IMG/VR virus record: IMGVR_UViG_3300046009_003451 | Span: 1-27,775 of that record | Reading direction: 5' to 3' (one strand) | Length of the DNA stretch: 27,775 nucleotides | Origin: a virus | In this document: piece by piece, positions 503 to 19,737 of the stretch | Position numbering within the stretch: position 1 is the first letter of the stretch | Layout of the letters: every line of letters starts with the position of its first letter | The notes under the pieces: generated by a model | Told to the model about the DNA's origin: nothing | Seen by the model: only the letters and a program-made list of their open reading frames with translations | Databases searched by the model: none | Made by a program: the position numbers and the translations under genes

Positions 503-525
503 GAGGGTCAGAAATTGGCTCTCTC
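501..525 (+). terminator. Hairpin before the first left gene (attenuator-like)
   Basis: GAGAGGGTCA at 501-510 pairs with TGGCTCTCTC at 516-525. The result is a 10-bp stem with two G-U pairs around the loop GAAAT, followed by TTTCATC. It sits between the possible leader ORF and the gene at 554. The short T tract makes it a weak terminator or an RNA structure rather than a strong intrinsic terminator. Confidence 0.4.
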
Positions 526-553
526 TTTCATCAACTCAATAGGCGTAAACAAA

Positions 554-739
554 ATGAACTACTCAGATACAGAAATAGACCGCATTGTTAGATCAATGGC
601 TTTAGGCACTCATGGAAGCTTTGCAAGGGCATTAGGTGAGGCTTTTATGGTTGCTGACTCTAACAACCAAGAAATCATCCTTGAATCGTTTAGTGCCTTG
701 TTTTCCAAGGTTGCACGATTCTTAGATATTGAGGAGTAA
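554..739 (+). CDS. Hypothetical protein, 61 aa
   Basis: First clear gene of the plus-strand block. The ATG at 554 is chosen because it follows the 13-base leader AATAGGCGTAAAC, which recurs before the genes at 1036 and 1514; an in-frame TTG at 515 would place that leader inside the protein. The product (MNYSDTEIDRIVRSM...) is a short, probably helical soluble protein with no recognised motif. It is separated by only four bases from the next gene. Confidence 0.65.
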   Translation: MNYSDTEIDRIVRSMALGTHGSFARALGEAFMVADSNNQEIILESFSALFSKVARFLDIEE

Positions 740-743
740 TCAA

Positions 744-914
744 ATGGATAAAAATACCTCCAAATTTATTAGCACAATCAATTGGATCTCTCATGTATTA
801 GGTGAGGATATTAGATATAAAGAAATTGATTACAAGCAAAGACTAATTGAAACCCAGAAACAATTAGAGAAAGCTTTAGAAGATTTTACGAATGATCATT
901 TAAATAGAAAGTAA
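744..914 (+). CDS. Hypothetical protein, 56 aa, helical
   Basis: The start at ATG 744 follows GAGGAG, which overlaps the end of the previous gene. The product has a short hydrophobic first half and a charged C-terminal half (RLIETQKQLEKALEDF) that looks like an amphipathic helix or short coiled coil. No function can be assigned. It is co-directional with tight neighbours, so it is probably part of one transcript. Confidence 0.6.
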   Translation: MDKNTSKFISTINWISHVLGEDIRYKEIDYKQRLIETQKQLEKALEDFTNDHLNRK

Positions 915-917
915 ATA

Positions 918-1013
918 ATGAAAACAGTTATATTTGAAGCTATTTTTGGCATCATCCTTTTTTGTGCAGCAATTGCCTTAATGCTTGCTTATTTTGATGT
1001 CCTAATCCCTTAA
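918..1013 (+). CDS. Small single-pass membrane protein, 31 aa
   Basis: This very short frame starts at ATG 918, four bases after the preceding stop. It encodes MKTVIFEAIFGIILFCAAIALMLAYFDVLIP with one hydrophobic segment at about residues 4-26. Its position between genes, with no spare room, and its membrane-helix composition support it. A phage inhibitor or membrane effector role is possible but unproven. Confidence 0.45.
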   Translation: MKTVIFEAIFGIILFCAAIALMLAYFDVLIP

Positions 1014-1035
1014 TCTTTTTTAATAGGTGTAAATA

Positions 1036-1278
1036 ATGATTAAATCAAAAGCAAAAGACAAAAGACATCCAAAGATTATTAATGAATGGATGGTTTATGA
1101 AGGCATAAACGAAATTAATGATGTATTTGGGGTATTAATTGCCCTGAAATCTTATATTAGAAGCGAAGATTTTAATAAATATCATGCAGAAATGATTGTC
1201 TCTTCTGTTCAATCATTGTTGTGTCATGGTACTGAGACAATTGAAAAATGGATGGATATAGAGGAGGAGGTTAAATGA
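1036..1278 (+). CDS. Hypothetical protein, 80 aa
   Basis: The start at ATG 1036 follows the shared leader AATAGGTGTAAAT at 1022-1034. The product is a charged, mostly helical soluble protein with basic N-terminus (KSKAKDKRHPK) and acidic C-terminus (DIEEEVK). No family is recognised. Its stop overlaps the next start by four bases (ATGA), indicating translational coupling. Confidence 0.6.
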   Translation: MIKSKAKDKRHPKIINEWMVYEGINEINDVFGVLIALKSYIRSEDFNKYHAEMIVSSVQSLLCHGTETIEKWMDIEEEVK

Positions 1279-1487
1279 AACTAGAAATCATTTCCACTGG
1301 TGGAGGTTTTAATGGTTTATCCATGCCTCATCCATTGGGCAAAGATTATGGTTATTTTTTAATAACCGATTCATCAGGAGAGCAGCCACCAATTATTGGA
1401 GGCAAAGCCATCATTGGATGGTATACAAGTGATTCTGAATTTTTAGGATATTTAGACATTCAACAATGGGATGGTTTGCCATCCTAA
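1275..1487 (+). CDS. Hypothetical protein, 70 aa
   Basis: The ATG at 1275 overlaps the upstream stop as ATGA, and GAGGAGG upstream is a strong ribosome binding site. The product is rich in glycine and aromatic residues (STGGGFNGL, GKDYGYFLI, GGKAIIGWY) and probably a small beta-rich domain. No function is assigned. It is followed 26 bases later by the Gp88-like gene. Confidence 0.6.
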   Translation: MKLEIISTGGGFNGLSMPHPLGKDYGYFLITDSSGEQPPIIGGKAIIGWYTSDSEFLGYLDIQQWDGLPS

Positions 1488-1513
1488 TCAATCAACATTT
1501 AATAGGCGTGAAT

Positions 1514-2275
1514 ATGTATAACCCTTACAAATCAATCATAAAAAAAGATGGCCTCATTTATAAAAAGCTTTTAGGCACTGCTTCTACAAAGACAGTAAAA
1601 GGCGAGAAGATGGGTTTCTTAACTGCCATCCTCTACCTAACCCCTAATGATGATCTTTGCCCACTTGCAAGGCTTGCTGGCTGCATGGAAGGATGCCTCT
1701 ACTCATCAGGCCGTGGCGCTTTTAATTCAGTACAGAAGGCAAGGCAAGCAAAAACTGAGTTTTGGTACACCCAACAAAAAAGCTTTTTGTTTTCCCTTTG
1801 TGCAGATATTTGGGAATTGCAAGAAAAGGCAAGTAGAAATAATCAAAAGCTTTTAGTTCGCCTTAATGGAACCAGCGACATCCTTTGGGAGAATTACGAG
1901 GTTATCCCAAATAGGACAATTTTTAATTTATTTTGTAATGTCCAATTTTATGACTATACAAAACACCCATCTAGAAACTTGGAAGGCAAAACTGTAGGCA
2001 ATTATGATTTGACCTATTCATTCTCAAGCATTACCCCAAAGCCAATATCTATTAAAGGATTAACAAATCCTGATAACTCAAGAGTAGCAGTAGTTTTTCA
2101 GAAAAAAGAGGATATTCCCTCAAGCTTTAGATCATGGGAAGTAATTGATGGGGATGATACTGATGTCAGACATATTGAGCCGAAAAATGTAGTAGTGGCT
2201 TTATATGCCAAAGGCAAAGCAAAAAAGGATCAATCTGGTTTTGTTCAAATTAAGGGGCTGCACTATGAGATGTGA
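1514..2275 (+). CDS. Gp88-like phage protein
   Basis: The 253-aa product carries the hallmarks I associate with the phage gene-product-88 family: GTASTKTVKGEK at residues 21-32, a cysteine cluster CPLARLAGCMEGCLYSSGRGAF with C49, C57 and C61, and LVRLNGTSDILWE further on. The cysteine spacing (C-x7-C-x3-C) resembles a metal or Fe-S site, but the molecular function of the family is unknown to me. ATG 1514 is preferred over upstream frames because it follows the leader AATAGGCGTGAAT. It overlaps the next gene by 11 bases. Confidence 0.75.
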   Translation: MYNPYKSIIKKDGLIYKKLLGTASTKTVKGEKMGFLTAILYLTPNDDLCPLARLAGCMEGCLYSSGRGAFNSVQKARQAKTEFWYTQQKSFLFSLCADIWELQEKASRNNQKLLVRLNGTSDILWENYEVIPNRTIFNLFCNVQFYDYTKHPSRNLEGKTVGNYDLTYSFSSITPKPISIKGLTNPDNSRVAVVFQKKEDIPSSFRSWEVIDGDDTDVRHIEPKNVVVALYAKGKAKKDQSGFVQIKGLHYEM

Positions 2276-2570
2276 TTACAAAACTGAATTTAGATATTTT
2301 GATTTTGAGATCCCTCCATTACCAGAGGGTTTTGTAGATATGTCATGGATTAACAATATTTGCCCATCGTTTGAGAGACAATTGAACGAAACTCAAATTG
2401 TCACTTTATGGGTAAATTATAAAAATATGAAAAGAAGAGAAATAAAAACAAAACAGTTTTTTATAACAATTGAAACTATTGATGAAATGGATCACGTATT
2501 AATTTATGAAACTGATTCATGGAAAGTAATTAATAATCAGATCAATAAACTATTTAAAAAGGCCAAATAA
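2265..2570 (+). CDS. Hypothetical protein, 101 aa
   Basis: The start at ATG 2265 lies inside the last codons of the Gp88-like gene, with AAGGGGC upstream as ribosome binding site. The protein begins MRCDYKTEFRYFDFEIPPLPEGF and looks like a small mixed alpha/beta protein with a basic C-terminus (INKLFKKAK). No known domain is recognised. Its stop TAA shares a base with the next ATG. Confidence 0.6.
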   Translation: MRCDYKTEFRYFDFEIPPLPEGFVDMSWINNICPSFERQLNETQIVTLWVNYKNMKRREIKTKQFFITIETIDEMDHVLIYETDSWKVINNQINKLFKKAK

Positions 2571-2707
2571 TGAATAAGGTATTTATATTAACTGAAGAGG
2601 GTGATATTGTGGCAGTTTTCTTTACAAGAGAATTAGCTATTAAATGCGCTAAAGAAAATGAAATAAGAAATTTTCATATTCAAGAATTTAACGTGAGGGT
2701 TAAATGA
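2570..2707 (+). CDS. Hypothetical protein, 45 aa
   Basis: This frame begins at ATG 2570 in a TAATG overlap and encodes MNKVFILTEEGDIVAVF..., ending NVRVK. It could form a small beta-hairpin-and-helix domain of the type seen in phage accessory proteins. It is coupled at both ends to its neighbours by overlapping start and stop codons, which is the main evidence that it is real. Confidence 0.5.
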   Translation: MNKVFILTEEGDIVAVFFTRELAIKCAKENEIRNFHIQEFNVRVK

Positions 2708-2883
2708 TGCACGATATTAGAGAACAAATTAATATTATTTGGGAAGCTTTGCATTCTTATAGAGAAGATTGTATCCCTGAGAGTGATCCAAGTTATAACG
2801 AGGAATGGGAGGATATTTGCCTAGCAATGGCAGTTATTCAAGAGCAGTTAGGCGAGGAGGAGGAGCTAGATAATGCAGCATAA
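2704..2883 (+). CDS. Acidic hypothetical protein, 59 aa
   Basis: The start is ATG 2704 (or the adjacent ATG 2707), overlapping the previous stop; GAGGG lies upstream. The product (MMHDIREQINIIWEALHSY...) is strongly acidic towards its C-terminus, with a glutamate run (GEEEELDNAA). The DNA for that run, GAGGAGGAGGAG, also serves as the ribosome binding site of the next gene. No function is recognised. Confidence 0.55.
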   Translation: MMHDIREQINIIWEALHSYREDCIPESDPSYNEEWEDICLAMAVIQEQLGEEEELDNAA

Positions 2884-3058
2884 TAAAATTGGAGAAATGA
2901 AGGGCGCTATTGGTGTTTTATTATTAGATGCCTCTGATTTATATGAAGTAATAGATGAGCAAGATTGCGCTTATTGGGTTAAATCTTTAGATGATCCCGA
3001 TTCAAAACCTCTTTGCATTTCACCCTCTCTCTTTTGGCAATTATTGCCCTCTCTCTGA
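2873..3058 (+). CDS. Hypothetical protein, 61 aa
   Basis: The start at ATG 2873 lies seven bases after a GGAGGAGG sequence inside the preceding gene. The product (MQHNKIGEMKGAIGVLLLDASDLYEVIDEQDCAYWVK...) is a small acidic protein of unknown function. It is the last plus-strand gene of the block and is followed within 16 bases by a terminator-like hairpin. Confidence 0.6.
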   Translation: MQHNKIGEMKGAIGVLLLDASDLYEVIDEQDCAYWVKSLDDPDSKPLCISPSLFWQLLPSL

Positions 3059-3073
3059 TCAGGGAATCCACAA

Positions 3074-3094
3074 AAAGGGGCTTTTAGCCTCTTT
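3074..3094 (+). terminator. Terminator of the left plus-strand operon
   Basis: AAAGGGGCT at 3074-3082 pairs with AGCCTCTTT at 3086-3094 around a TTT loop: a nine-base-pair stem with one G-U pair, followed by CTTTGGGCTTC. Its place 15 bases after the last gene stop supports termination. With A-rich and T-rich flanks it might also work from the other side. Confidence 0.6.
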
Positions 3095-3268
3095 CTTTGG
3101 GCTTCTTAAGTTAGTTAGGGCTTACTTCATAAAATCTAAGATTTAAGCCATTTTTTGTAGTTGATGCATACCTACCATTGGAAAGTGAAAAAGTAAGCTA
3201 AAAACGGCCTTAAAATCGATTTTAGCGACATTCTGGACCACGACTCACGCACCAGTTTTCGCTGCTAA

Positions 3269-3318
3269 GTTAGTGAGTGCCAACTAACCTCTAGGATGTA
3301 AGTGAGTGCTAACTTACA
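3269..3318. repeat. Two covarying 20-bp inverted repeats
   Basis: GTTAGT-GAGTGCCA-ACTAAC at 3269-3288 and GTAAGT-GAGTGCTA-ACTTAC at 3298-3317 share the central eight bases except one. They differ at the third arm base, where the partner base changes to keep pairing (T-A versus A-T). Centres are 29 bp apart. The region between convergent operons has no other gene; RNA hairpins or protein binding sites are both possible. Confidence 0.55.
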
Positions 3319-3324
3319 AAAAAC

Positions 3325-3340
3325 TAAGGGTTTACCCTAA
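3325..3340. promoter_or_regulatory. Isolated copy of the GGGTTTACCC element
   Basis: TAAGGGTTTACCCTAA is the reverse-orientation form of the leader element at 90-105, matching 14 of 16 bases. It lies 7 bp after the covarying inverted repeats, between two convergent operons. A related site lies in the divergent control region at 10247-10262. Confidence 0.45.
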
Positions 3341-3409
3341 AACAGGACCTTTTTAGAAAAAGTCGCATTTACTTTTTTGGAAGTTGATTTAACCAATTTT
3401 TCAAAGTTC

Positions 3410-3426
3410 AAAGTTTTTGAAACTTT
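3410..3426 (-). terminator. AT-rich hairpin after the minus-strand operon
   Basis: AAAGTTT at 3410-3416 and AAACTTT at 3420-3426 form a perfect seven-pair stem with a three-base loop, just beyond the stop of the HNH gene. A C-G pair extends it across a bulged T. It is AT-rich and therefore weak; it is listed because its position fits the end of the long minus-strand transcript. Confidence 0.3.
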
Positions 3427-3431
3427 TGAAA

Positions 3432-3716
3432 TTAGAAAGGGTTTTCATTTTCAAACCTGGCAGAGAGAAGTCTTTGAATTGTGATGTTCAAGGCATCTAT
3501 CTCGTCCATTTTCTTGATGTGCCACATTCTTTTCTGACCATGCCATCCAAGGGTAGAGTTAGTGTGGCAGTCCTGACATAAAGCTATGCAGGTGTACTGA
3601 AGACCTTGCTTAACATGGTGAGCCTCTGATGGTCCTGACGCATCGCATACTGAACAGGGAAGAGATTTCACCAGAGCTAGGTGTAGTCTTTCCTTGGCGT
3701 TCAGTTTGTTGTTCAT
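3432..3716 (-). CDS. HNH endonuclease, RecA-dependent-nuclease (Ref)-like
   Basis: This 94-aa protein begins MNNKLNAKERLHLALVKSLPCSVC. It has a zinc-type pair of cysteines (PCSVC), the HNH histidines in EAHHVKQG, and a second pair in CQDCH, followed by LGWHG. This pattern resembles short phage HNH nucleases related to the RecA-dependent Ref family, which cut DNA in recombination or packaging. ATG 3716 is chosen because it forms an ATGA overlap with the gene upstream. It is last in the operon. Confidence 0.75.
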   Translation of the reverse strand: MNNKLNAKERLHLALVKSLPCSVCDASGPSEAHHVKQGLQYTCIALCQDCHTNSTLGWHGQKRMWHIKKMDEIDALNITIQRLLSARFENENPF

Positions 3717-4045
3717 TGGGTTGCCCTGACTTCCATTCTTGCTGAGTACTGGTTGGTTCTCCACACTTCCACCCTTGCTTGGGCAGCGGTCATCAACCAA
3801 CGATACTTCTCTTCTTTCTCTACTGCGGCTCTGATGCCTTCTAGAATTTCTATGTATTCTTCATGGGCATAAGCAAAGGTTTCTTGTTTACCCAAGACTT
3901 CTGTCCCTGCCTGGCTCATCAGGTGAGCCTTCTTTGACTTGCGGAACTCCTCCAAGTACAGGCGATCCGCTTTCGCTTTTGCGTACAAGGGTGCGGTATC
4001 GATCAAATACTGAATTGCTTTGTCGGGGCTTATCTGGCTCTCCAT
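3713..4045 (-). CDS. Hypothetical phage protein, 110 aa, helical
   Basis: The start at ATG 4045 has GGAGA eight bases upstream. The product (MESQISPDKAIQYLIDTAPLYAKAKADRLYLEEFRKSKKAHLM...) is charged and almost entirely helical, and resembles conserved phage proteins found beside recombination genes, although I know no function. The first 158 bases overlap the tail of the upstream gene in another frame, and the last four overlap the HNH gene. Confidence 0.7.
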   Translation of the reverse strand: MESQISPDKAIQYLIDTAPLYAKAKADRLYLEEFRKSKKAHLMSQAGTEVLGKQETFAYAHEEYIEILEGIRAAVEKEEKYRWLMTAAQARVEVWRTNQYSARMEVRATQ

Positions 4046-6422: not shown

Positions 6423-7294
6423 TTCAGGAGTTCCCATGCTGTGGCGGCACAGAGAGGGACTTGTCCATTACCAATGGCTTTAAGTCTGTCCACCCTAGCG
6501 TCCATCCCATTAACCACTCTACGAATATCGGGTTCAGTTGACCACCAGGTACTGTCGGCTCCATAAATGTTTTGTTCTTCGTAGCGCCCCTTTCGGCAGC
6601 GTAGTCCAATCTGTCCCTCAGTTGTCCTGTTTGACCCGATCCCTTGTAGTCTGTTGAGCATGGAGTTGGAAACATCTCCTTCGGTGGAGGATAGACCACT
6701 TGCTCTCTCAGAGTTGAGTGAGTTGTTCTGCCCTTCCTGTTGTTCTGGTATTGGCGTTCCAAGGCTTCTGGATTTCTTGCGGGTAGTCCATCCATTACTG
6801 TTGGAGTGAGCCACAATCCAGATTCTGTCCCTTTGGTGGTTTGCACCAACGTCTTTTGCTCCCACAATTCCCCATTTCGCATCAAACCCCATTGAGGATA
6901 AGTCTCCGAGAACGGCTCCAAGTCCCCTAGAAACGAGCATTGGTGAGTTCTCCACAAAGACGTACTCTGGTCCCACTTCGCAAATGATCCTCGCCATTTG
7001 TTTCCACATTCCTGATCGCTCTCCATCAAGTCCATCTCCTTTTCCTGCAATGGATATGTCTTGACAAGGAAATCCTCCCGAAATGACTTGAGCAACTCCT
7101 CTCCAAGGTCTTCCGTCAAAGGTTTGAACGTCATCCCAAATCGGGAAAGGCGGGAGAAGGCCGTCATTTTGTCGGGCGGCAAGTACGCAAGCTGCGTATG
7201 GCTCCCATTCAACGGCACAGACTGTTCTCCATCCGAGAAGTTGTCCCCCAAGTATTCCTCCACCAGCACCTGCGAATAAAGCCAACTCATTCAA
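6419..7294 (-). CDS. DNA cytosine-C5 methyltransferase
   Basis: The motifs of a C5 methylase appear in order: FAGAGGGILGG (motif I, residues 7-17), GGFPCQD with catalytic C77 (motif IV), ENSP at 115-118 (motif VI, usually ENVP), QRDRIWIVA at 154-162 (motif VIII) and GNGQVP at 275-280 (motif X). It transfers a methyl group from SAM to cytosine, probably shielding phage DNA. At 291 aa it is short, with a hydrophilic target-recognition region of about 100 residues. The start is TTG 7294, only four bases after AAGGA. Nearly the whole gene is open in a second frame. Confidence 0.85.
   Translation of the reverse strand: MNELALFAGAGGGILGGQLLGWRTVCAVEWEPYAACVLAARQNDGLLPPFPIWDDVQTFDGRPWRGVAQVISGGFPCQDISIAGKGDGLDGERSGMWKQMARIICEVGPEYVFVENSPMLVSRGLGAVLGDLSSMGFDAKWGIVGAKDVGANHQRDRIWIVAHSNSNGWTTRKKSRSLGTPIPEQQEGQNNSLNSERASGLSSTEGDVSNSMLNRLQGIGSNRTTEGQIGLRCRKGRYEEQNIYGADSTWWSTEPDIRRVVNGMDARVDRLKAIGNGQVPLCAATAWELLK
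6424..7290 (-). CDS. Overprinted protein in the methylase gene
   Basis: A 288-codon frame runs on the same strand as the methylase, shifted by one base. It is not random-looking: it holds FGMTFKPLTEDLGEELL (51-67), SFAKWDQSTSLWRTHQCS (102-119), YPQWGLMRNGELWE (131-144), LWLTPTVMDG (159-168) and GGQLNPIFVEWLMGWTLGWTDL (249-270). I recall this motif series in phage proteins linked to such methylases; function is unknown. Its ATG 7290 overlaps the previous stop (ATGA) and lies eight bases after AAGGA, better placed than the methylase start. M42 (7167) is an alternative start. Confidence 0.6.
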   Translation of the reverse strand: MSWLYSQVLVEEYLGDNFSDGEQSVPLNGSHTQLAYLPPDKMTAFSRLSRFGMTFKPLTEDLGEELLKSFREDFLVKTYPLQEKEMDLMESDQECGNKWRGSFAKWDQSTSLWRTHQCSFLGDLEPFSETYPQWGLMRNGELWEQKTLVQTTKGTESGLWLTPTVMDGLPARNPEALERQYQNNRKGRTTHSTLREQVVYPPPKEMFPTPCSTDYKGSGQTGQLRDRLDYAAERGATKNKTFMEPTVPGGQLNPIFVEWLMGWTLGWTDLKPLVMDKSLSVPPQHGNS

Positions 7295-7613: not shown

Positions 7614-8082
7614 TTTTTAGTTTTTTCTCTAAAACATAAGACCAAATAGCACCGCCAGAAACCTTGGCTACAAACTGAAGTGCAACAATTTCAGGCATCA
7701 AAACGCCAAACGCAATAGTTGGGAAAAGCAAAGAGTCAACGGCAGCGCCAGCAGTATTTGAAACATTGGCTCGTTTGATCCATGAGCCTGTGGTTTTTAC
7801 AAAAACTGCCCAATCTACCAAAGCCGCCACTAAGAACGAGACCGCAGAAGCTACTGCAATCATTCCTGCCGCAGGGTTTAACAAATAGGTTAAAGCACCT
7901 GTTCCCAATATCAAGCCTCCCATTTGCCATGTTTTGAGTCGAACATGAAGCCAATCACGCAATGTAAGGTCTAATCCAATTAGTAAAAAAGCGTTTATTG
8001 GGCTGATTGCTGGCCCAAATGTAGCCACCAAAAGGTTTGCGGCAATCATTGCCACGGAATATGTAATTAAAGCAAAAATCAT
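7600..8082 (-). CDS. VUT-family (YhhQ-like) queuosine precursor transporter
   Basis: The 160-aa product is almost wholly membrane-spanning, with about five or six hydrophobic helices. It has PINAFLLIGLDLTLRDWLH, TYLLNPAAGMIAVASAVSF, SNTAGAAVDSLLFPTIAFG and FVAKVSGG, as in VUT-family proteins; E. coli YhhQ of this family imports preQ0/preQ1. It is shorter than cellular members (about 220 aa). ATG 8082 is chosen because it forms an ATGA overlap with the transglycosylase stop. Together the two suggest salvage of a 7-deazaguanine precursor. Confidence 0.8.
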   Translation of the reverse strand: MIFALITYSVAMIAANLLVATFGPAISPINAFLLIGLDLTLRDWLHVRLKTWQMGGLILGTGALTYLLNPAAGMIAVASAVSFLVAALVDWAVFVKTTGSWIKRANVSNTAGAAVDSLLFPTIAFGVLMPEIVALQFVAKVSGGAIWSYVLEKKLKNVPL

Positions 8083-8819
8083 AAAAGTGTTTCCTGTTCC
8101 ATTGGTTGATAAAAATTCCATTGAGAAGGGGCATTAAATGCCTCGATCCTAGAACGCATGACTTGCGCTCTTGCTTCCTTAGTTGGTGGCAAATAATTTC
8201 CATGCTTCCAATGCACATCAATACCAACATTTCTGCCAATATTTGTGCTGTCAGCTGATGAAAATGGTAATTTGGTGAAAATTGCAGGGTCTAGCATTCT
8301 TAAACCATGCAGTTTGCAAGCAGGTCTTCCCATGTCATCACAAATGACTCTCATGGCTTGACTCATCTTGACCCACCAGTTTGATGTTCCTACTGTAGAA
8401 AACTCCCCAGAGCTACCAATACAGACTCGCAAATAGGTGTTCGCAAGTTGTTCAAGTCTCTCAAGGGATTCATGCATATGCCAAACTGGTGCGCCAAACC
8501 ATGTCGGCAGCGGGCAGTCTTTTAGCAAGGCATCGTTGTCTGCTTCAGTTCCATCAATAACGTCAGGAATTACCGCAAAGTCGCAAGAAGGGACTTTTTT
8601 GAGATTTAGTGACCAATCGTAGAAAGGTTGCCAATCTTGGATTGGATTCCCAGATCGCCAGGCAGAGAATGCTCCATTGTCTATCGCAAAGGACTGACAC
8701 ACCTCAATTGCTGTTGAAAGTTGGTCAGAATGAGCAAACGAAACAAACGCATGACCATTTTCAATTGCTTTGACAGAGGCTGTTAATGGAGTAATTGGCA
8801 AGCCGTGATAGTGGATCAT
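8079..8819 (-). CDS. DpdA/TGT-like 7-deazaguanine transglycosylase
   Basis: The 246-aa protein carries a conserved phage pattern compatible with the tRNA-guanine transglycosylase fold: MIHYHG, SFAIDNGAFSAWRSG (D47), FAVIPDVIDG (D86, D89), GAPVWHMHESLERL, GSSGEF (135-140), KLHGLRML (170-176) and SSADSTN (D190). The aspartates are candidates for catalysis. DpdA proteins swap guanine in DNA for preQ0 or a derivative; TGT does so in tRNA. The adjoining transporter, the DNA-metabolism context and the absence of tRNA genes favour DNA. Assignment to a DpdA subfamily is from memory. Confidence 0.65.
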   Translation of the reverse strand: MIHYHGLPITPLTASVKAIENGHAFVSFAHSDQLSTAIEVCQSFAIDNGAFSAWRSGNPIQDWQPFYDWSLNLKKVPSCDFAVIPDVIDGTEADNDALLKDCPLPTWFGAPVWHMHESLERLEQLANTYLRVCIGSSGEFSTVGTSNWWVKMSQAMRVICDDMGRPACKLHGLRMLDPAIFTKLPFSSADSTNIGRNVGIDVHWKHGNYLPPTKEARAQVMRSRIEAFNAPSQWNFYQPMEQETLL

Positions 8820-11594: not shown

Positions 11595-12098
11595 ATGCTT
11601 ACGCAAAAAGACGTTCAAGAATGCTTTGATTACAAAGATGGAGTCTTGTATTGGAAAATTAAAACTGCAAATCGTGTAAAAGTTGGAAGTCCAGCAGGAT
11701 CAGTGGATCCATCAACTGGATATCACAAAATACACGTTTACAAAAAATTTCATAAAACACATAGAGTTATATTTTTGTATCACTATGGATATATGCCTGA
11801 CTTTGTTGACCATATAGATGGTGATAAGTTAAACAACAAAATAGAAAATTTAAGAGCTGCAACAAAATCACAAAATTGTATGAATCAAAAGATTAGTACA
11901 AGAAATACAAGTGGAATGAAAGGAGTTATGTGGCACAAAAGAGATAAAAAATGGTTAGTAGCATTAAGAGTTAATTCAATACTTTATAACTTTGGCAGGT
12001 TTGATGATAAAGAGTTAGCAGAGTTAGTAGCATTAGAAGCAACAAACAAGTTGCATAAAGAGTTTTCAGCATACAAAGGAGTGTTACATGGAAAATAA
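11595..12098 (+). CDS. HNH homing endonuclease with AP2 domain
   Basis: The 167-aa protein contains [47 protein letters not shown], the HNH_3 nuclease core, and [39 protein letters not shown], an AP2-like DNA-binding repeat. Such free-standing enzymes cut cognate alleles and spread with repair. The gene is more AT-rich than its neighbours, which suggests separate origin. It splits the ERF and SSB-like genes and overlaps the latter by 11 bases. Confidence 0.9.
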
Positions 12099-12339
12099 TC
12101 GACAGGTAAGAGACAACTCAGGCGTTTTGTTTCGCAACGACAAAAAAGACAATGATCGTGCGCCAGAATACAAAGGCAACATTACAGTCAATGGTCAAGA
12201 TTTTTGGCTATCTGCATGGATTAAAGAGGGTAAGGGAGGCAAGTTCATGGGACTAGCACTCTCACCTAAAGAGCCACAAGCAAAACCATCAGCAAGGTCT
12301 AAAGCAACAGGCTTTGATGACGAAGACTTGCCGTTCTGA
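12088..12339 (+). CDS. SSB-like ssDNA-binding protein, 83 aa
   Basis: The product includes [38 protein letters not shown], a beta-barrel-like segment found in small phage proteins of recombination operons, and ends in DDEDLPF. That acidic tip resembles the C-terminal tail of bacterial SSB, which recruits repair partners. It probably binds single strands beside the ERF protein, but the full SSB fold cannot be shown by eye. Confidence 0.65.
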
Positions 12340-12344
12340 TATAC

Positions 12345-12418
12345 GGGGGGAAAGCGGATGCTGTGCCAGTTGCAATGACAAGCATCTGACTTAATGCACA
12401 GACGCAGCGAGTACCCCC
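12345..12418 (+). ncRNA. Possible structured RNA after the SSB-like gene
   Basis: GGGGG (12346-12350) can pair with CCCCC (12414-12418), GCG (12354-12356) with CGC (12403-12405), and CTGTGC (12361-12366) with GCACAG (12396-12401), all nested in order. The G/C blocks stand out from the AT-rich surroundings. No T tract follows, so it is not a standard terminator. The family is not recognised. Confidence 0.35.
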
Positions 12419-12442
12419 ACCACAATTCAACAGGAGTTAATG

Positions 12443-12757
12443 ATGGACTATAAGAAAATATTTAAGACGATGTTCCCAATTGGTGAGTTTCCACGAGTTA
12501 GAAGCTCAGATCCAGTAACATCTTTTGAGGCGGCAGACCAGATTAAAGAGTCTGCTAAACAACATCACCAGGTCATTCTAGAGTGCCTAAGAACACATGG
12601 TGCTTTGGGCAAAGATGGTATCGCTAGTCTAACCAAACTAGATGGCAATCAAGTTGCCAGAAGGTTAAGTGAGCTTAAAACGCTAGGACATATTCATCTC
12701 ACAGGTAAAACAGTTAAATCAAACTCAGGCAGAAACGAAAGAGAGTGGTCAATATGA
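12443..12757 (+). CDS. Winged-helix DNA-binding protein
   Basis: The 104-aa product has FPRVRSSDPVTSFEAADQIKESAKQHHQVILECLRTHGALGKDGIASLTKLDGNQVARRLSELKTLGHI, a helix-turn-helix with a following wing, a common phage type. ATG 12443 lies six bases after AGGAG, while ATG 12440 would leave three. It overlaps the MazG-like gene by four bases. It may control this operon or late genes. Confidence 0.75.
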   Translation: MDYKKIFKTMFPIGEFPRVRSSDPVTSFEAADQIKESAKQHHQVILECLRTHGALGKDGIASLTKLDGNQVARRLSELKTLGHIHLTGKTVKSNSGRNEREWSI

Positions 12758-13068
12758 GTTATGCAGATTTAGAAATGAAAGTTGTGCAGTGGGGTGAGGC
12801 TCGTGGCATCGTCCAGAACAGCACAGCATTTGCTCAAGCACTCAAAACTAAAGAAGAGTTAGATGAGTTGTTTGACGCTATCAACAATGAAGATAGAGAG
12901 GCCATCAAGGATGCCTATGGAGACATCTTAGTGACCCTTATCTTGGGTTGTGCTTGTATTGACCTTGATCTCGTAAGTTGCTTAAAAGGTGCTTATTTAG
13001 AAATCAAGGACCGCAAAGGATATCTCAATGAATATGGGATATTTGTTAAGCAGTCAGAACCTGCATAG
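12754..13068 (+). CDS. MazG-like nucleotide pyrophosphohydrolase
   Basis: The 104-aa product holds AQALKTKEELDELFDAINNEDREAIKDAYGDILVTLILGC, matching the all-alpha NTP pyrophosphatase fold with its EE..E and D..GD metal ligands. MazG enzymes remove NTPs or ppGpp-like alarmones, which phages use to adjust host metabolism. The start ATG 12754 forms an ATGA overlap. Its end overlaps the convergent endolysin gene by 23 bases. Confidence 0.8.
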   Translation: MSYADLEMKVVQWGEARGIVQNSTAFAQALKTKEELDELFDAINNEDREAIKDAYGDILVTLILGCACIDLDLVSCLKGAYLEIKDRKGYLNEYGIFVKQSEPA

Positions 13069-13642
13069 CGTGATTTATGTGCTTAATTCTGTCGTCTAGA
13101 CCAATAAAACCACCATTGATCTTTTTGGTCATGGTTTTATAGTCTCGAACATCTGCAAATTGGTTGAGTTTCTGGGTATTCCAGAACCAACCAGCAGTGA
13201 GAGCCGCATACATTGGAGTGGCAACCAAATCGGGCTCCATCACAAAATCTACCCCAAGAGCTTGCCCTGCATGATAGTAATTAGCATGGCCTGTCAACTG
13301 GATACAACCTCTGCCTCTAAAACGATATCCATCACCAGAGGCTTCATCCCTGTTGCCCATACGTGAGCTGTAAACAGTATTGGCAATAGCCTTTGGATTA
13401 CGAGCGCACATCTGTGCTTTGGTAGCATCAAATCGTTTAGGCCATAACTTCTGTAGAGCCTCTGCACGATAGTTCAAGTTCTCTTCTAAGATATTAAAAT
13501 TACCACACTCATGGCTACATTGACCAATAAACGATGCTTGGCGTACTGGAGTACTGATATCAAAACGCTCAAAAGTTGCGTTCAAAGCATCAACCCATTG
13601 CTCACCAATGTGTAGCTTTGCAAGTTGTTCTTTATTTACCAT
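13046..13642 (-). CDS. GH19 endolysin (chitinase-like muramidase)
   Basis: The 198-aa protein has the GH19 signatures: RQASFIGQCSHECGNFNILEENLNYRAEAL with E45 and E53/E54 as candidate catalytic residues, and YRFRGRGCIQLTGHANYYHAGQALGVDF. Phage GH19 enzymes hydrolyse the peptidoglycan glycan chain to release virions. No signal peptide is evident, so it needs a holin. It follows the spanin genes in the same transcript. Confidence 0.9.
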   Translation of the reverse strand: MVNKEQLAKLHIGEQWVDALNATFERFDISTPVRQASFIGQCSHECGNFNILEENLNYRAEALQKLWPKRFDATKAQMCARNPKAIANTVYSSRMGNRDEASGDGYRFRGRGCIQLTGHANYYHAGQALGVDFVMEPDLVATPMYAALTAGWFWNTQKLNQFADVRDYKTMTKKINGGFIGLDDRIKHINHAMQVLTA

Positions 13643-15826: not shown

Positions 15827-18286
15827 TTATCTAAACAGGTCTAAAAGACCCTTAATAGGTTTCTGTGGAACAAATTGATCTGGGTTATTTACAGATTCAT
15901 TCATTGCTTGACCCATTGCTGTCCCCATACCGCCAGCTCCTTGTAATTGTTCACCAAGTAAGAATCGAGTTCCAGTTTGGCTAGATAGTGCATTAGCTAA
16001 TCTGTTTGCACCTACTGGCACAGCGGCAGCAGATGCGGCACTAATTAATCCAGTGCCAAATCCACCCATCCCTAAACCTTCAGCAATCTGACCACCGAGG
16101 CCAAAACCACCTGCAATACCACTTCCACCCGCTACATAAGGCAATAGTGCTGCACCAGTTGCAGGTGCTACCTTTGGTGTAACAGCACCACGAGTTGTAT
16201 CAACAATGTCTCTCAACAAAGTTATTTCATCTAAAAGTGCAGGGTTATCTGCAAATGCAACACGTTGTGCAGTTGGACTATCTGGTCTGCCAAGATTCAA
16301 AGTTCTTGTAAATGCAGGTGCTGAGAAACCAGTAGCCGCATCAGGATTAATAGCTCTGTTTCTAGCTTCATTCAAGATAGAGTATTGAGCCGCTTGTTTA
16401 CCAGTTGGTGACATCAAGCTAAAAGCAAGTTCTGCCGTTGTAGGATTCTTGTCAAAACTAAAGTTTTGCGCTACCAAATCAATATCATTTTGTGGTGTCT
16501 TGCTAGATACAAGCTTGTAGATGTTTGAATCTTGTCTAAAAGGCAAAACAGTCTCTTTAAATTGAGCCATTGCCTTTTGGTGTTGTGCGCCAGCAGGTGT
16601 GGTCAATGGAAGACCATCAGGACCAAATCCAGGCGTTGCCCATACATCCACATCATCAGCTAAACCTTTGTATAGTTGATTTATTGAATTTAACTGTTTC
16701 TCGCTATAAGAGCCAGGCACAAGACCCTTGCGAACACGTTCCATTTCAGAAAAAACTGTAGATTGCAAATCACGCAATTCTCTGTAAGAACCACCGCCAT
16801 TTTGAATCAATGTATTTAGCTTCTCAATAGTTTTTTCAATGACAGGAGTTTGAGAAGTAGATGGAAATTGATTGATAACATCAATTGTTGCTTGGTTTGT
16901 ATTACGCAACGGGATAATGTCATTACCAGCCAACGCCTCTGCTTGCTTAAATTCAGGGCTTACATTTGATTTAGCAGTTTGATATTGTTTACGTAAGTCG
17001 TCAGCAATGATCTTCTTCTCGCCACCTTCAGACATTCTTGATGGCTTAAGATTTTCAGTAGTTTTTTCAATTAACTTTTTAACTTGATCTGCTTTTATTT
17101 GATTTGAGGATTCTTTTGAAAAACCCAATTGACGCAATTTGTCAATAGTCCCTGCAGCTGGGCCACCAACATCACCAACATCTACATTAACACCACGTTG
17201 GCGAGCAGATTCAATAAGTTGTCCTGATACTGGTTCACGATATTGTGTGCCTGTTGGAACATTACCCGCTCTAGCGGCAACAGCACTAGCAGGTAAACCT
17301 GCCGCCAAGTTAATACCAAGCAATGCCAATGGGTTATTGATATCAAACTGACTACGAGCAGTTTCAGCAGCTCCAGTACCAACAGTAGCACCTGCCACTT
17401 GAGCAACAGGTTGAGCCGCTAAACCCTGACCAACTGCCTGAGTAGTCGCTCTTCCAGATTGTTGCAATATGCCACCAAGACCACCAGTTGCAGGGATACC
17501 TGCTACCGCACGAGTCACATTACCAATCCCACGTTCAAAGTTTGTCTGTGGTTGTGGCAAACCAAGCATGGTTGCAATGTTTGACATGGACTGACTTGGA
17601 GTACCAAGTTGACTACCAGTAGCCCTGTTAATCAACATATTCAAAGGTGTGCCAACAATGTCAGCAACCTGACCAATACCTTCTAATCCATAGCGAGCAG
17701 TTAAGCCTACCTGACGGGCAACAGAGTCTTGATTCTGTCTAACAGGAGCTTTTGGGACTATTTGTTGTCCAAGTTGAGCTGGATCAACATCACGATAACC
17801 AGCATTTTGCTGTTGCTCTGGTGTAGCCATGCCTCTCAGATCAATTTTGGGTGTTGCTTGACCAAGCATAGATGGGTCAATATCACGAAAAGTAGCCATG
17901 TTTGTACCTACAACTTTCTGTACGTAGTTTTGCGTTTCTTTGAATGGAGGAACACCACCATACTTCTCAACATTGCCAGGACCTGCGTTATAAGCGGCAG
18001 CAACCAATGTAGGATCTTGAAATCTTTGTGTTAACTGGCCTAGATATTTAACACCACCTCTGATGTTATCTTTCCAATCCATTCGATTAACACCAAGATC
18101 TTTGGCAGTTGCACTCATCAACTGCATAGGTCCATAAGCACGATCATTAAATCTTGTTTTAGGACCAATAGCGTTAAACGAACCACCAGACTCAGTTTCT
18201 ACAATCTTTTGAACCAAAGAAAAAGGAACGCCTTGCCTTTCGGCTTCTTGCCTAGCAAATTCGTAAACTTGTTCTTTGGTAGCCAT
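15827..18286 (-). CDS. Ejection protein with lytic transglycosylase domain
   Basis: The 819-aa product starts with an SLT domain: FSLVQKIVETESGGSFNAIGP with catalytic E32, YGPMQLMSATAKDLGV, and LVAAAYNAGPGNVEKYGGVPP around 94-114. The rest is long, with glycine/alanine-rich and helical stretches and small hydrophobic segments, like the large internal proteins of podoviruses (T7 gp16, P22 gp16 type). It probably enters the host with the DNA and cuts peptidoglycan. Its start overlaps the upstream stop (TAATG). Confidence 0.85.
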   Translation of the reverse strand: MATKEQVYEFARQEAERQGVPFSLVQKIVETESGGSFNAIGPKTRFNDRAYGPMQLMSATAKDLGVNRMDWKDNIRGGVKYLGQLTQRFQDPTLVAAAYNAGPGNVEKYGGVPPFKETQNYVQKVVGTNMATFRDIDPSMLGQATPKIDLRGMATPEQQQNAGYRDVDPAQLGQQIVPKAPVRQNQDSVARQVGLTARYGLEGIGQVADIVGTPLNMLINRATGSQLGTPSQSMSNIATMLGLPQPQTNFERGIGNVTRAVAGIPATGGLGGILQQSGRATTQAVGQGLAAQPVAQVAGATVGTGAAETARSQFDINNPLALLGINLAAGLPASAVAARAGNVPTGTQYREPVSGQLIESARQRGVNVDVGDVGGPAAGTIDKLRQLGFSKESSNQIKADQVKKLIEKTTENLKPSRMSEGGEKKIIADDLRKQYQTAKSNVSPEFKQAEALAGNDIIPLRNTNQATIDVINQFPSTSQTPVIEKTIEKLNTLIQNGGGSYRELRDLQSTVFSEMERVRKGLVPGSYSEKQLNSINQLYKGLADDVDVWATPGFGPDGLPLTTPAGAQHQKAMAQFKETVLPFRQDSNIYKLVSSKTPQNDIDLVAQNFSFDKNPTTAELAFSLMSPTGKQAAQYSILNEARNRAINPDAATGFSAPAFTRTLNLGRPDSPTAQRVAFADNPALLDEITLLRDIVDTTRGAVTPKVAPATGAALLPYVAGGSGIAGGFGLGGQIAEGLGMGGFGTGLISAASAAAVPVGANRLANALSSQTGTRFLLGEQLQGAGGMGTAMGQAMNESVNNPDQFVPQKPIKGLLDLFR

Positions 18287-19737
18287 TAGTCATAAACCCT
18301 GAAAACGCCACTTGGCAATTGATAAGCAGTTTTACCCCTGTCAGGACCACTTGTCACAGGGAAACTAGGCAAATACTTACGCAATTTAGGATCTTCAAAA
18401 ATTGATGCACTACCTTGTGGGGTCTGTGACCATTTCTCAACAACATCAGGCACAGGATTCTTGGTTACATAGTTGTAATAATCCTTCTTGCGCTGATTTG
18501 CAACCCTAGTAAGATCTAAATAATATTGCACTGCTTCTTTAGGATTTGTAATCTGTGGTCCACGAGATGCACTAAATAAAATATCTTTGTCAGAAGTTGC
18601 ACCAACTAAATCTTGGATGTTGGCAGAAGCTACATCAGCAACAGATTGCAAGAACAAAGGAGAATCAACAGCCACTGCTTTGGCTCTTTCACCACCAATT
18701 CCCAAGCCACTTGCAATAGCCGCAGCTTCAGACTTAAATGCCGCAAACTTACCTGGCTCAAACGCACCACGATTGATAATGTTTTGCAGGTTTTGCAAAC
18801 TTGCATCAGAACTTGAAGCCGCTTGGAATCCTTTAAAAGCCGCTTCTCTGATTGGCTTGTAACCTTCAAAAGCTTGAACTTCAGAAGGAGACAATGCTGT
18901 TGGCTGACCAAGTGCCTCAGCTTCTGTAACACGCTTTGTTCTGCCTGTACCTGGAACAACAATATTAGTAGGCGTTGTTTGTAAAGAAGCTTGTCCTTCT
19001 CCAAATCGCCTATCAAAACCTAATTGCTGAGTAACTGAGCGCATACCTGGCAACAGATTTGTTTGCATTAATCCTGCATCATTAAAACTTAGTTGCGCTC
19101 CTACTGGCACTTCAGGCAATGTAGTACCAACTTTTGCTTGTAATGCTCCTGCAACTGGTTTGGCTTCAAATTGACCAGTTCTACTGTTGTATTGCGTTTG
19201 AATTAAATCTCTTTGTTGTGGCAAAGAACCAATAATATTTCCTTGGTTGTCAACACGCAAACCATCAACAAATGTTGGTTGCATTGCTTTCAATGTTTCA
19301 CGAATTTGTGGTTGTGCAGGATTGCCAGACAAGCGCAATGAGTCTGATAATGCTCTGTTGAAATCAATAGGTGCATTTAGCCTGTCTATTTGTCTTTGAG
19401 CAGCCTGTGGAGATGGTCCATAATCTGTTGAAGTTCGAGTAGGTGCGTTTACAAACGATTGTTGACCTGCTTGAAATGGAGTAGGAGCATATTGCTCTAA
19501 AAAGCTAGAAACCTCACCACGCTGGCGTTGTTTCTCTTTCATCTCAGAAATAGCTTTTTGACCACTAATGTACTGATCAGGTACAGACATAGCAGACCTT
19601 AAGCCCATTGCAGGATCATTGCTTAACAAAGAGCCTAGCAAGAACTGAGTTGTAGCTTGCTTTTGCAAACTTTCTTTCTCAGTATCACTAAGACCAGTAA
19701 GTGCCGCATCAGACAGCAAACCAAAATTGAAAGCCAT
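18286..19737 (-). CDS. Putative ejection/internal virion protein, 483 aa
   Basis: The product begins MAFNFGLLSDAALTGLSDTEKESLQKQATTQFLLGSLLSNDPAMGLRSAM and is mixed helical, with Q- and A-rich regions and the segment SASRGPQITNPKEAVQYYLDLTRVANQRKKDYYNY. No catalytic motif is seen. Its place between a repeat-rich long protein and the SLT protein matches the middle member of a podoviral ejection-protein trio. AAGGAG precedes the start. Confidence 0.6.
   Translation of the reverse strand: MAFNFGLLSDAALTGLSDTEKESLQKQATTQFLLGSLLSNDPAMGLRSAMSVPDQYISGQKAISEMKEKQRQRGEVSSFLEQYAPTPFQAGQQSFVNAPTRTSTDYGPSPQAAQRQIDRLNAPIDFNRALSDSLRLSGNPAQPQIRETLKAMQPTFVDGLRVDNQGNIIGSLPQQRDLIQTQYNSRTGQFEAKPVAGALQAKVGTTLPEVPVGAQLSFNDAGLMQTNLLPGMRSVTQQLGFDRRFGEGQASLQTTPTNIVVPGTGRTKRVTEAEALGQPTALSPSEVQAFEGYKPIREAAFKGFQAASSSDASLQNLQNIINRGAFEPGKFAAFKSEAAAIASGLGIGGERAKAVAVDSPLFLQSVADVASANIQDLVGATSDKDILFSASRGPQITNPKEAVQYYLDLTRVANQRKKDYYNYVTKNPVPDVVEKWSQTPQGSASIFEDPKLRKYLPSFPVTSGPDRGKTAYQLPSGVFRVYD

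Follow-up and report, generated by a model that had tools for sequence, protein, structure and literature searches.

Tandem 20-bp dyads between converging phage genes resemble SlmA-binding sites

A pair of tandem inverted repeats lies between two converging sets of genes in a phage genome, and the question which this locus raises is what reads them. The repeats could act as RNA, through the pairing of their arms, or as DNA, through a protein encoded by the phage or by its host. The DNA analysed here, all 27,775 bases of a virus record, is referred to as the window. An earlier reading made from the letters of the window (the sequence-only reading) took the pairing of the arms to be under selection, and proposed RNA hairpins, processing sites, or a replication or partition site.

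The repeats and the convergent gap

Both repeats are real. They are 20-bp inverted repeats, GTTAGTGAGTGCCAACTAAC at 3269-3288 (P2) and GTAAGTGAGTGCTAACTTAC at 3298-3317 (P3), with starts and centres 29 bp apart, and both copies retain the core GAGTGC(C/T)A as had been described. The reported base change in step between the copies is also present, with arm position 3/18 changing from T-A to A-T. Both copies fit GTWAGTGAGTGCYAACTWAC, and at three mismatches or fewer this joint pattern is seen twice, against 0.02 expected per shuffled window (100 dinucleotide shuffles, maximum 1). The sequence-only reading overlooked a degenerate third copy, GTTAGTTAGGGCTTACTTCA (P1, 3110-3129), whose start precedes that of P2 by 159 bp and which many relatives show more clearly.

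The gap is indeed convergent, the rightward ORFs ending at 3058 and the leftward ORF at 3432. It is bounded on the left by a run of small rightward ORFs (515-3058, + strand), which includes a GP88-family gene (PF17338; 1466-2275), and on the right by an ORF on the - strand (3432-3800; phrog_1588; start codon provisional) that served as the query for relatives. A Pfam search with the protein of the latter found no match; from its Cys/His spacing, judged by eye, we take it to be HNH-like. The rightward operon ends in a terminator-like hairpin with a T-rich tail (3077-3098, + strand; the stem in the window was read by eye), which precedes sites P1-P3. In relatives, 47 of 58 distinct hairpin forms before the T-run fold at -5 kcal/mol or better, and the printed examples differ in both arms. 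A scan of the gap for consensus promoters found none. Promoter control at the window cluster is disfavoured because the cluster lies in a convergent gap with no evident promoter.

To the right, P3 is adjoined by the palindrome GGGTTTACCC (3328-3337), a second recurrent motif in this phage group, and then by a conserved non-coding tract (3342-3431) which is 73% A+T, a value reached by 1.9% of 90-bp windows in the record. That such a tract adjoins the pair, and that the terminator of the + operon precedes the sites, are both compatible with the gap being a replication origin, in which the tandem dyads would be iterons and the A+T-rich tract next to them the place of melting. However, in full relatives the GC skew tracks the strand of the genes and carries no sign of an origin, and no initiator family common to the carriers was found. 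We regard an origin as quite improbable.

Conservation of the sites in related phages

The search with the phrog_1588 ORF protein gave 442 relatives on viral contigs. The best 80 of the 442 were used, and these loci yielded 71 distinct gaps, with identical gaps counted once and two loci too short. Two sites 28-29 bp apart occur in 68 of the 71 and a single site in the other three, and no site pair occurs in the reversed sequences of the same gaps. An aligned set of 81 gaps, drawn from all loci available and including a few picked by motif, contains 77 pairs and four singles. Throughout, duplicates among the gap or upstream sequences entered the counts once, and loci whose flanks were short were excluded.

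The claim that pairing is under selection does not survive this comparison. Arms which vary in related phages without compensation had been named beforehand as the observation that would speak against it, and that is how the arms vary. Of 80 aligned gaps, 18 have no pair at position 3/18 of the first site, and 42 have none at that position of the second. In distinct sequences, the outermost two pairs of the first site form in 10 and 10 of 36 (shuffles 9.1 and 9.5), and those of the second site in 6 and 7 of 27 (shuffles 6.0 and 6.2). Position 3/18 itself is paired in 23 of 36 at the first site (shuffle mean 18.1) and in 13 of 27 at the second (14.0). Pair counts for P1 were excluded from this analysis. 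Covariation thus amounts at most to a small surplus of pairs at a single position in one of the sites, and the inference from pairing fails because the arms of relatives vary unpaired, with little or no covariation relative to shuffles.

The same counts bear on the proposal that selection on pairing maintains the repeats as RNA hairpins, processing sites or terminators. In its favour are the one change in step between the window copies and their position between converging operons. The relatives offer little or no supporting covariation, however, with the 3/18 pair so often broken, and other properties of the sites also argue against it. There is no T-run (the bases after P2 are CTCTAGG and those after P3 AAAAAACT) and the terminator scan lists none there, the stems of P2/P3 type reach only about -4.7 to -4.9 kcal/mol, and an Rfam search gave no match. 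An RNA role of this sort is extremely improbable.

What is constant lies elsewhere. The AGT and ACT arms together with G9 and C12 are fixed or nearly so (at the second site the final T of ACT is present in 23 of 27). G9 and C12 fall within the supposed loop, and they are as invariant as the inner arms. The invariant element is the dyad AGTnAGyrCTnACT, of a form typical of the site of a dimeric protein. The alignment therefore supports a site of the kind that proteins bind, with no evident promoter near it.

The dyad is widespread among phages. An exact-pattern scan of viral contigs found 80 stretches (one contig twice), and the same pattern reversed had no match; in species genomes of bacteria and archaea, 257 Gb in all, a related pattern found 22 stretches. 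At four mismatches or fewer, the 80 viral loci contain 269 sites against three in reversed sequence, each locus having been preselected for one exact site. Two sites 16-99 bp apart, most often 28-29 bp, are seen in 66 of the 80. A pattern built on the SlmA consensus, discussed below, matched at least 120 viral stretches, of which the 80 listed, giving 77 new loci, were the ones analysed; among the matches listed, 52 of the 77 new loci have two sites 16-99 bp apart. BLAST gave no match for the gap among phages, nor for a T2 array among phages and plasmids.

The carriers include two large phage groups with unlike small terminases. That of group T1 belongs to PF20901 and that of group T2 has no Pfam hit (protein tested), and the large terminases of both form one BLAST cluster. 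In T2 (80 loci found via the small terminase gene, terS), three or more core sites are present in 56 of 62 distinct regions upstream of terS, and none in the reversed sequences. In T1 (80 loci found via terS), a dyad array is upstream in one of 60 and GGGTWWACCC repeats in 43 of 60. With motif-picked loci added, these counts become 9 and 59 of 89, the nine dyad arrays coming mostly from the motif-picked loci. The window is of the GGGTWWACCC type: it begins within the terS-side gap, and the repeats at its left end (17-102; exact copies start at 17, 64 and 93) occupy the position where some relatives carry a 20-bp dyad array beside terS. Gene content in 10 full T1 records revealed no clear swap partner.

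Arrays directly upstream of terS in many relatives would fit a packaging (pac/cos) site to which the small terminase subunit binds. Against this, near-identical terS genes accompany either the dyad array or the GGGTWWACCC repeats, and the same dyad goes with two unlike terS families; this mismatch of terS type applies to the terS-side arrays, not to the convergent-gap cluster. We consider a packaging site very improbable.

Several other features of these regions were seen. GGGTWWACCC stands in several copies at the terS-side gap of most T1 relatives and once beside P3, and such palindromes are also found in phage L050 at 6530-6560. A leftward terminator fold at GGGTWWACCC reaches -3 kcal/mol or better in 31 of 68 distinct forms, and no terminator is claimed. 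In the T2-type phage L106 (MW202483; ~28100-28700), GTTTAYGTAAAC-like palindromes in the terS-side gap stand where the dyad array would be; the one place can thus hold arrays of different palindromes. The control regions of T2 phages (L297, L310 and L322 upstream of terS; L104 at ~640-690) contain repeated TTGCCCACA / TTGTCCACA nonamers, which we take to be close to DnaA boxes and which are present also where the dyad array is absent. In L341 (G045) the gap and its HNH-like module occur twice (11735-13118 and 16069-17451), the copies forming an 86% identical inverted repeat of ~1.39 kb that flanks a small segment.

Resemblance to SlmA sites and the search for a reader

The known role of SlmA sites is to mark the chromosome, so that the division ring is kept away from the nucleoid. 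SlmA itself is described as a TetR-like nucleoid-occlusion protein (PMC3573117) which binds the 12-bp palindrome GTGAGTACTCAC (PMC3116907). The reported chromosomal SlmA-binding sites (SBSs) of E. coli and V. cholerae share this dyad core within the 20-bp consensus GTAAGTGAGCGCTCACTTAC, and a TetR-family protein binds them as a dimer of dimers (PMC3116907; PMC4423959). The in vitro values reported for SBScons, AAGTAAGTGAGCGCTCACTTACGT, are an apparent Kd of 25 nM with two dimers per site, and for SBS17 and SBS12 they are 190 nM and 270 nM (PMC4423959).

The phage dyads resemble this consensus far beyond chance. The three sites in the window had been listed before the SlmA consensus was looked up, and they give the best matches to the SBScons 20-mer in the whole window: P3, the top match, agrees at 18 of 20 positions, P2 at 15 and P1 at 14. 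The 14/20 of P1 is on its own within chance, and an unrelated place at 19031 ties with it. In 60 shuffled windows no match reached 16/20, and the means were 0.03 at 15/20 and 0.6 at 14/20. Across the 81 gaps the best match per gap is 15-18/20, against 10-12/20 in reversed sequence. The commonest form of the second site in relatives, CGAAGTGAGTGCTAACTTAC, agrees at 17 of 20 positions with the published SBS12. The layout differs from that of the chromosomal sites as published, which are scattered singly, whereas the phage sites stand in tandem at a fixed pitch of 28-29 bp in non-coding gaps. A literature search over titles and the starts of abstracts of open-licence PMC papers, in which 'SBS' is an ambiguous term, returned no report of SlmA sites in phages. 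The 'partition site' of the sequence-only reading was near in spirit to this result, since the best match is to the site of a nucleoid-bound division regulator.

Which protein reads the dyad can be approached through the genes beside it. At 21 non-phage bacterial loci the neighbour is often an ORF of ~200 aa, and TetR_N was found in 9 of 10 tested cellular neighbour ORFs. Among phage records, many of them fragments, TetR_N was found in 0 of 37. TetR neighbours in cells and phages without TetR_N together make a host TetR-family protein the candidate reader. Scattered actinobacterial and other genomes (L083-L103) carry the same 20-bp palindrome beside TetR-family genes, and an NCBIfam scan of five cellular TetR neighbours found none that reaches the SlmA cut-off. 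Other TetR regulators may share the 20-bp palindrome as their target.

Phage-encoded candidates were also considered. GP88 is present in 10 of 37 phage records and does not track the sites, DUF7227 is present in 8 of 23 and DUF1376 in 5 of 23, and a GAGRK-type small protein likewise does not track the sites. A 62-aa neighbour gene was counted in both groups. In T1 it accompanies 9 of 9 dyad arrays at the terS gap, 3 of 58 with GGGTWWACCC and 4 of 18 with neither; in T2 it occurs in 15 of 53 with the array and in 4 of 7 without. We dismiss it as the reader because of its inconsistent presence in T2, and take it to be merely carried along with the array. The family has no Pfam match and adjoins the T1 dyad array (L002:7292-7486; L048:199-432). 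Relatives of GP88 and DUF7227 lie beside the arrays in the operon of many phages (window 1466-2275; L061:4266-5249; L068:4010-4684; L072:3851-4606), and GP88 type does not follow array type (G004, G041).

These observations bear on the main alternative, that the sites are operators of a phage-encoded regulator, or of another dimeric regulator of the host, and resemble SlmA sites as a result of a shared way of reading a dyad by several dimers. One version of it has paired operators, with a cluster at each end of the small rightward operon, and three T1 phages (L037, L050 and G041) do have a window-type cluster and a terS-side cluster ~3 kb apart. The palindrome beside cellular TetR-family genes that fall below the SlmA cut-off also agrees with this alternative. 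In phage lambda, OL and OR are operator clusters of two or three close-pitched dyads near both ends of the early segment. Unlike them, the window cluster has no phage-encoded reader that we found and no evident promoter. With no tested phage family tracking the sites and no consensus promoter in the scan of the gap, operators, paired or otherwise, are an unlikely explanation, the two versions being one reading in this estimate.

Our preference is for host SlmA as the reader of the phage sites, which we hold with moderate confidence. The sites are probably a phage-borne cluster of SlmA type, a new setting for a known kind of site.

A possible use of the sites and the candidate hosts

If SlmA is the reader, the tandem pair and the one outlying site in the convergent gap would be a docking place for the host protein. 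Each site would hold two SlmA dimers, and both the spacing of AGT at every 4 bp and the tandem arrangement would accommodate several adjacent dimers. Replication of the phage would spread many SlmA-loaded copies through the cell. These copies would draw SlmA off the nucleoid, oppose FtsZ and block assembly of the Z-ring, and division would be held back during infection, in the manner of multicopy plasmids with two tandem sites in E. coli. Alternatively, bound SlmA may place or regulate the phage DNA; in V. cholerae, SlmA is reported to activate chb (PMC5519180).

The laboratory plasmids pHC534 and p2SBSK are a close known likeness, being multicopy DNA with two tandem SlmA sites, and a multicopy plasmid with tandem SBSs is reported to cause an SlmA-dependent block of division (PMC3573117; PMC4117426). 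They differ from the phage arrays, which are natural and carry putative sites, in that they are described as engineered, and the division tests with them had SlmA at ~4 times the native level (PMC3573117; PMC4117426). Fourfold SlmA is stated to block colony formation with such a plasmid, and fortyfold without it (PMC4117426). Phages which target host division during infection are on record in lambda Kil and T5 Hdi, described as FtsZ-blocking proteins (PMC3961180; PMC10714956), whereas the agent proposed here would be a DNA site acting via a host protein.

Given SlmA as the reader, we put the chance that division control is the use of the sites at about even. That phage DNA acts as a division inhibitor by trapping and activating host SlmA away from the nucleoid, with no phage protein required, is a more tentative proposal and on the doubtful side; we lowered its probability slightly because the plasmid tests used raised SlmA. 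SlmA-type sites conserved in tandem across many phages would imply that viruses have adopted a code by which the host marks its chromosome, and restraint of division by viral DNA alone would become directly testable. Such sites would also account for a class of site common to phages with no evident shared regulator.

A candidate host family comes from L104, a T2 phage contig found within the metagenome bin G053 and the sole betaproteobacterial match among the 22 stretches. In this bin, 4 of 4 sites at two mismatches or fewer, and 5 of 6 at three or fewer, are on the phage contig. The link between the window phage and the G053 family rests on this one binned contig. Of 60 genomes of the family, 52, among them G053, encode a SlmA that scores above the curated NCBIfam cut-off, and one family SlmA aligns with the solved SlmA 4gct (E 9.4e-50), which we take to be the V. 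cholerae protein. Residues T31 and E43 of SlmA are reported to act in DNA binding, and F63 and R71 in the interaction with FtsZ (PMC5519180). All ten family SlmAs that were read retain T31, E43, F63 and the helix SEAALYRHF, and have L or A in place of R71. The recognition helix of SlmA is thus unchanged in the family. The step from binding to inhibition of FtsZ is weakened by the loss of R71.

Chromosomal site counts in this family show no general excess. The strict 12-mer, which would miss SBS12 and SBS17, has 37 sites in 60 family genomes against 46 reversed, and in 40 family genomes there are 35 against 36. The full 20-mer at two mismatches or fewer occurs in 2 of 399 G053-family genomes, against 11 with a control hit. 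These counts are weak evidence either way, the 12-mer being strict and the counts having no E. coli control. The idea that the full 20-mer is a repeat element or regulon of the host was rejected, with 2 of 399 genomes, 22 stretches in 257 Gb, and L104 a phage. An excess is seen only in G086 (11 against 2 reversed) and in its genus (21 against 7 in four genomes, short core). G086, in which L343:1501-1520 is an example site, may be nearer the true host range.

The window also contains, on the - strand, a gene like that of queuine tRNA-ribosyltransferase (8079-8819) and one for a DNA methyltransferase (6424-7290), which suggests DNA modification in this phage.
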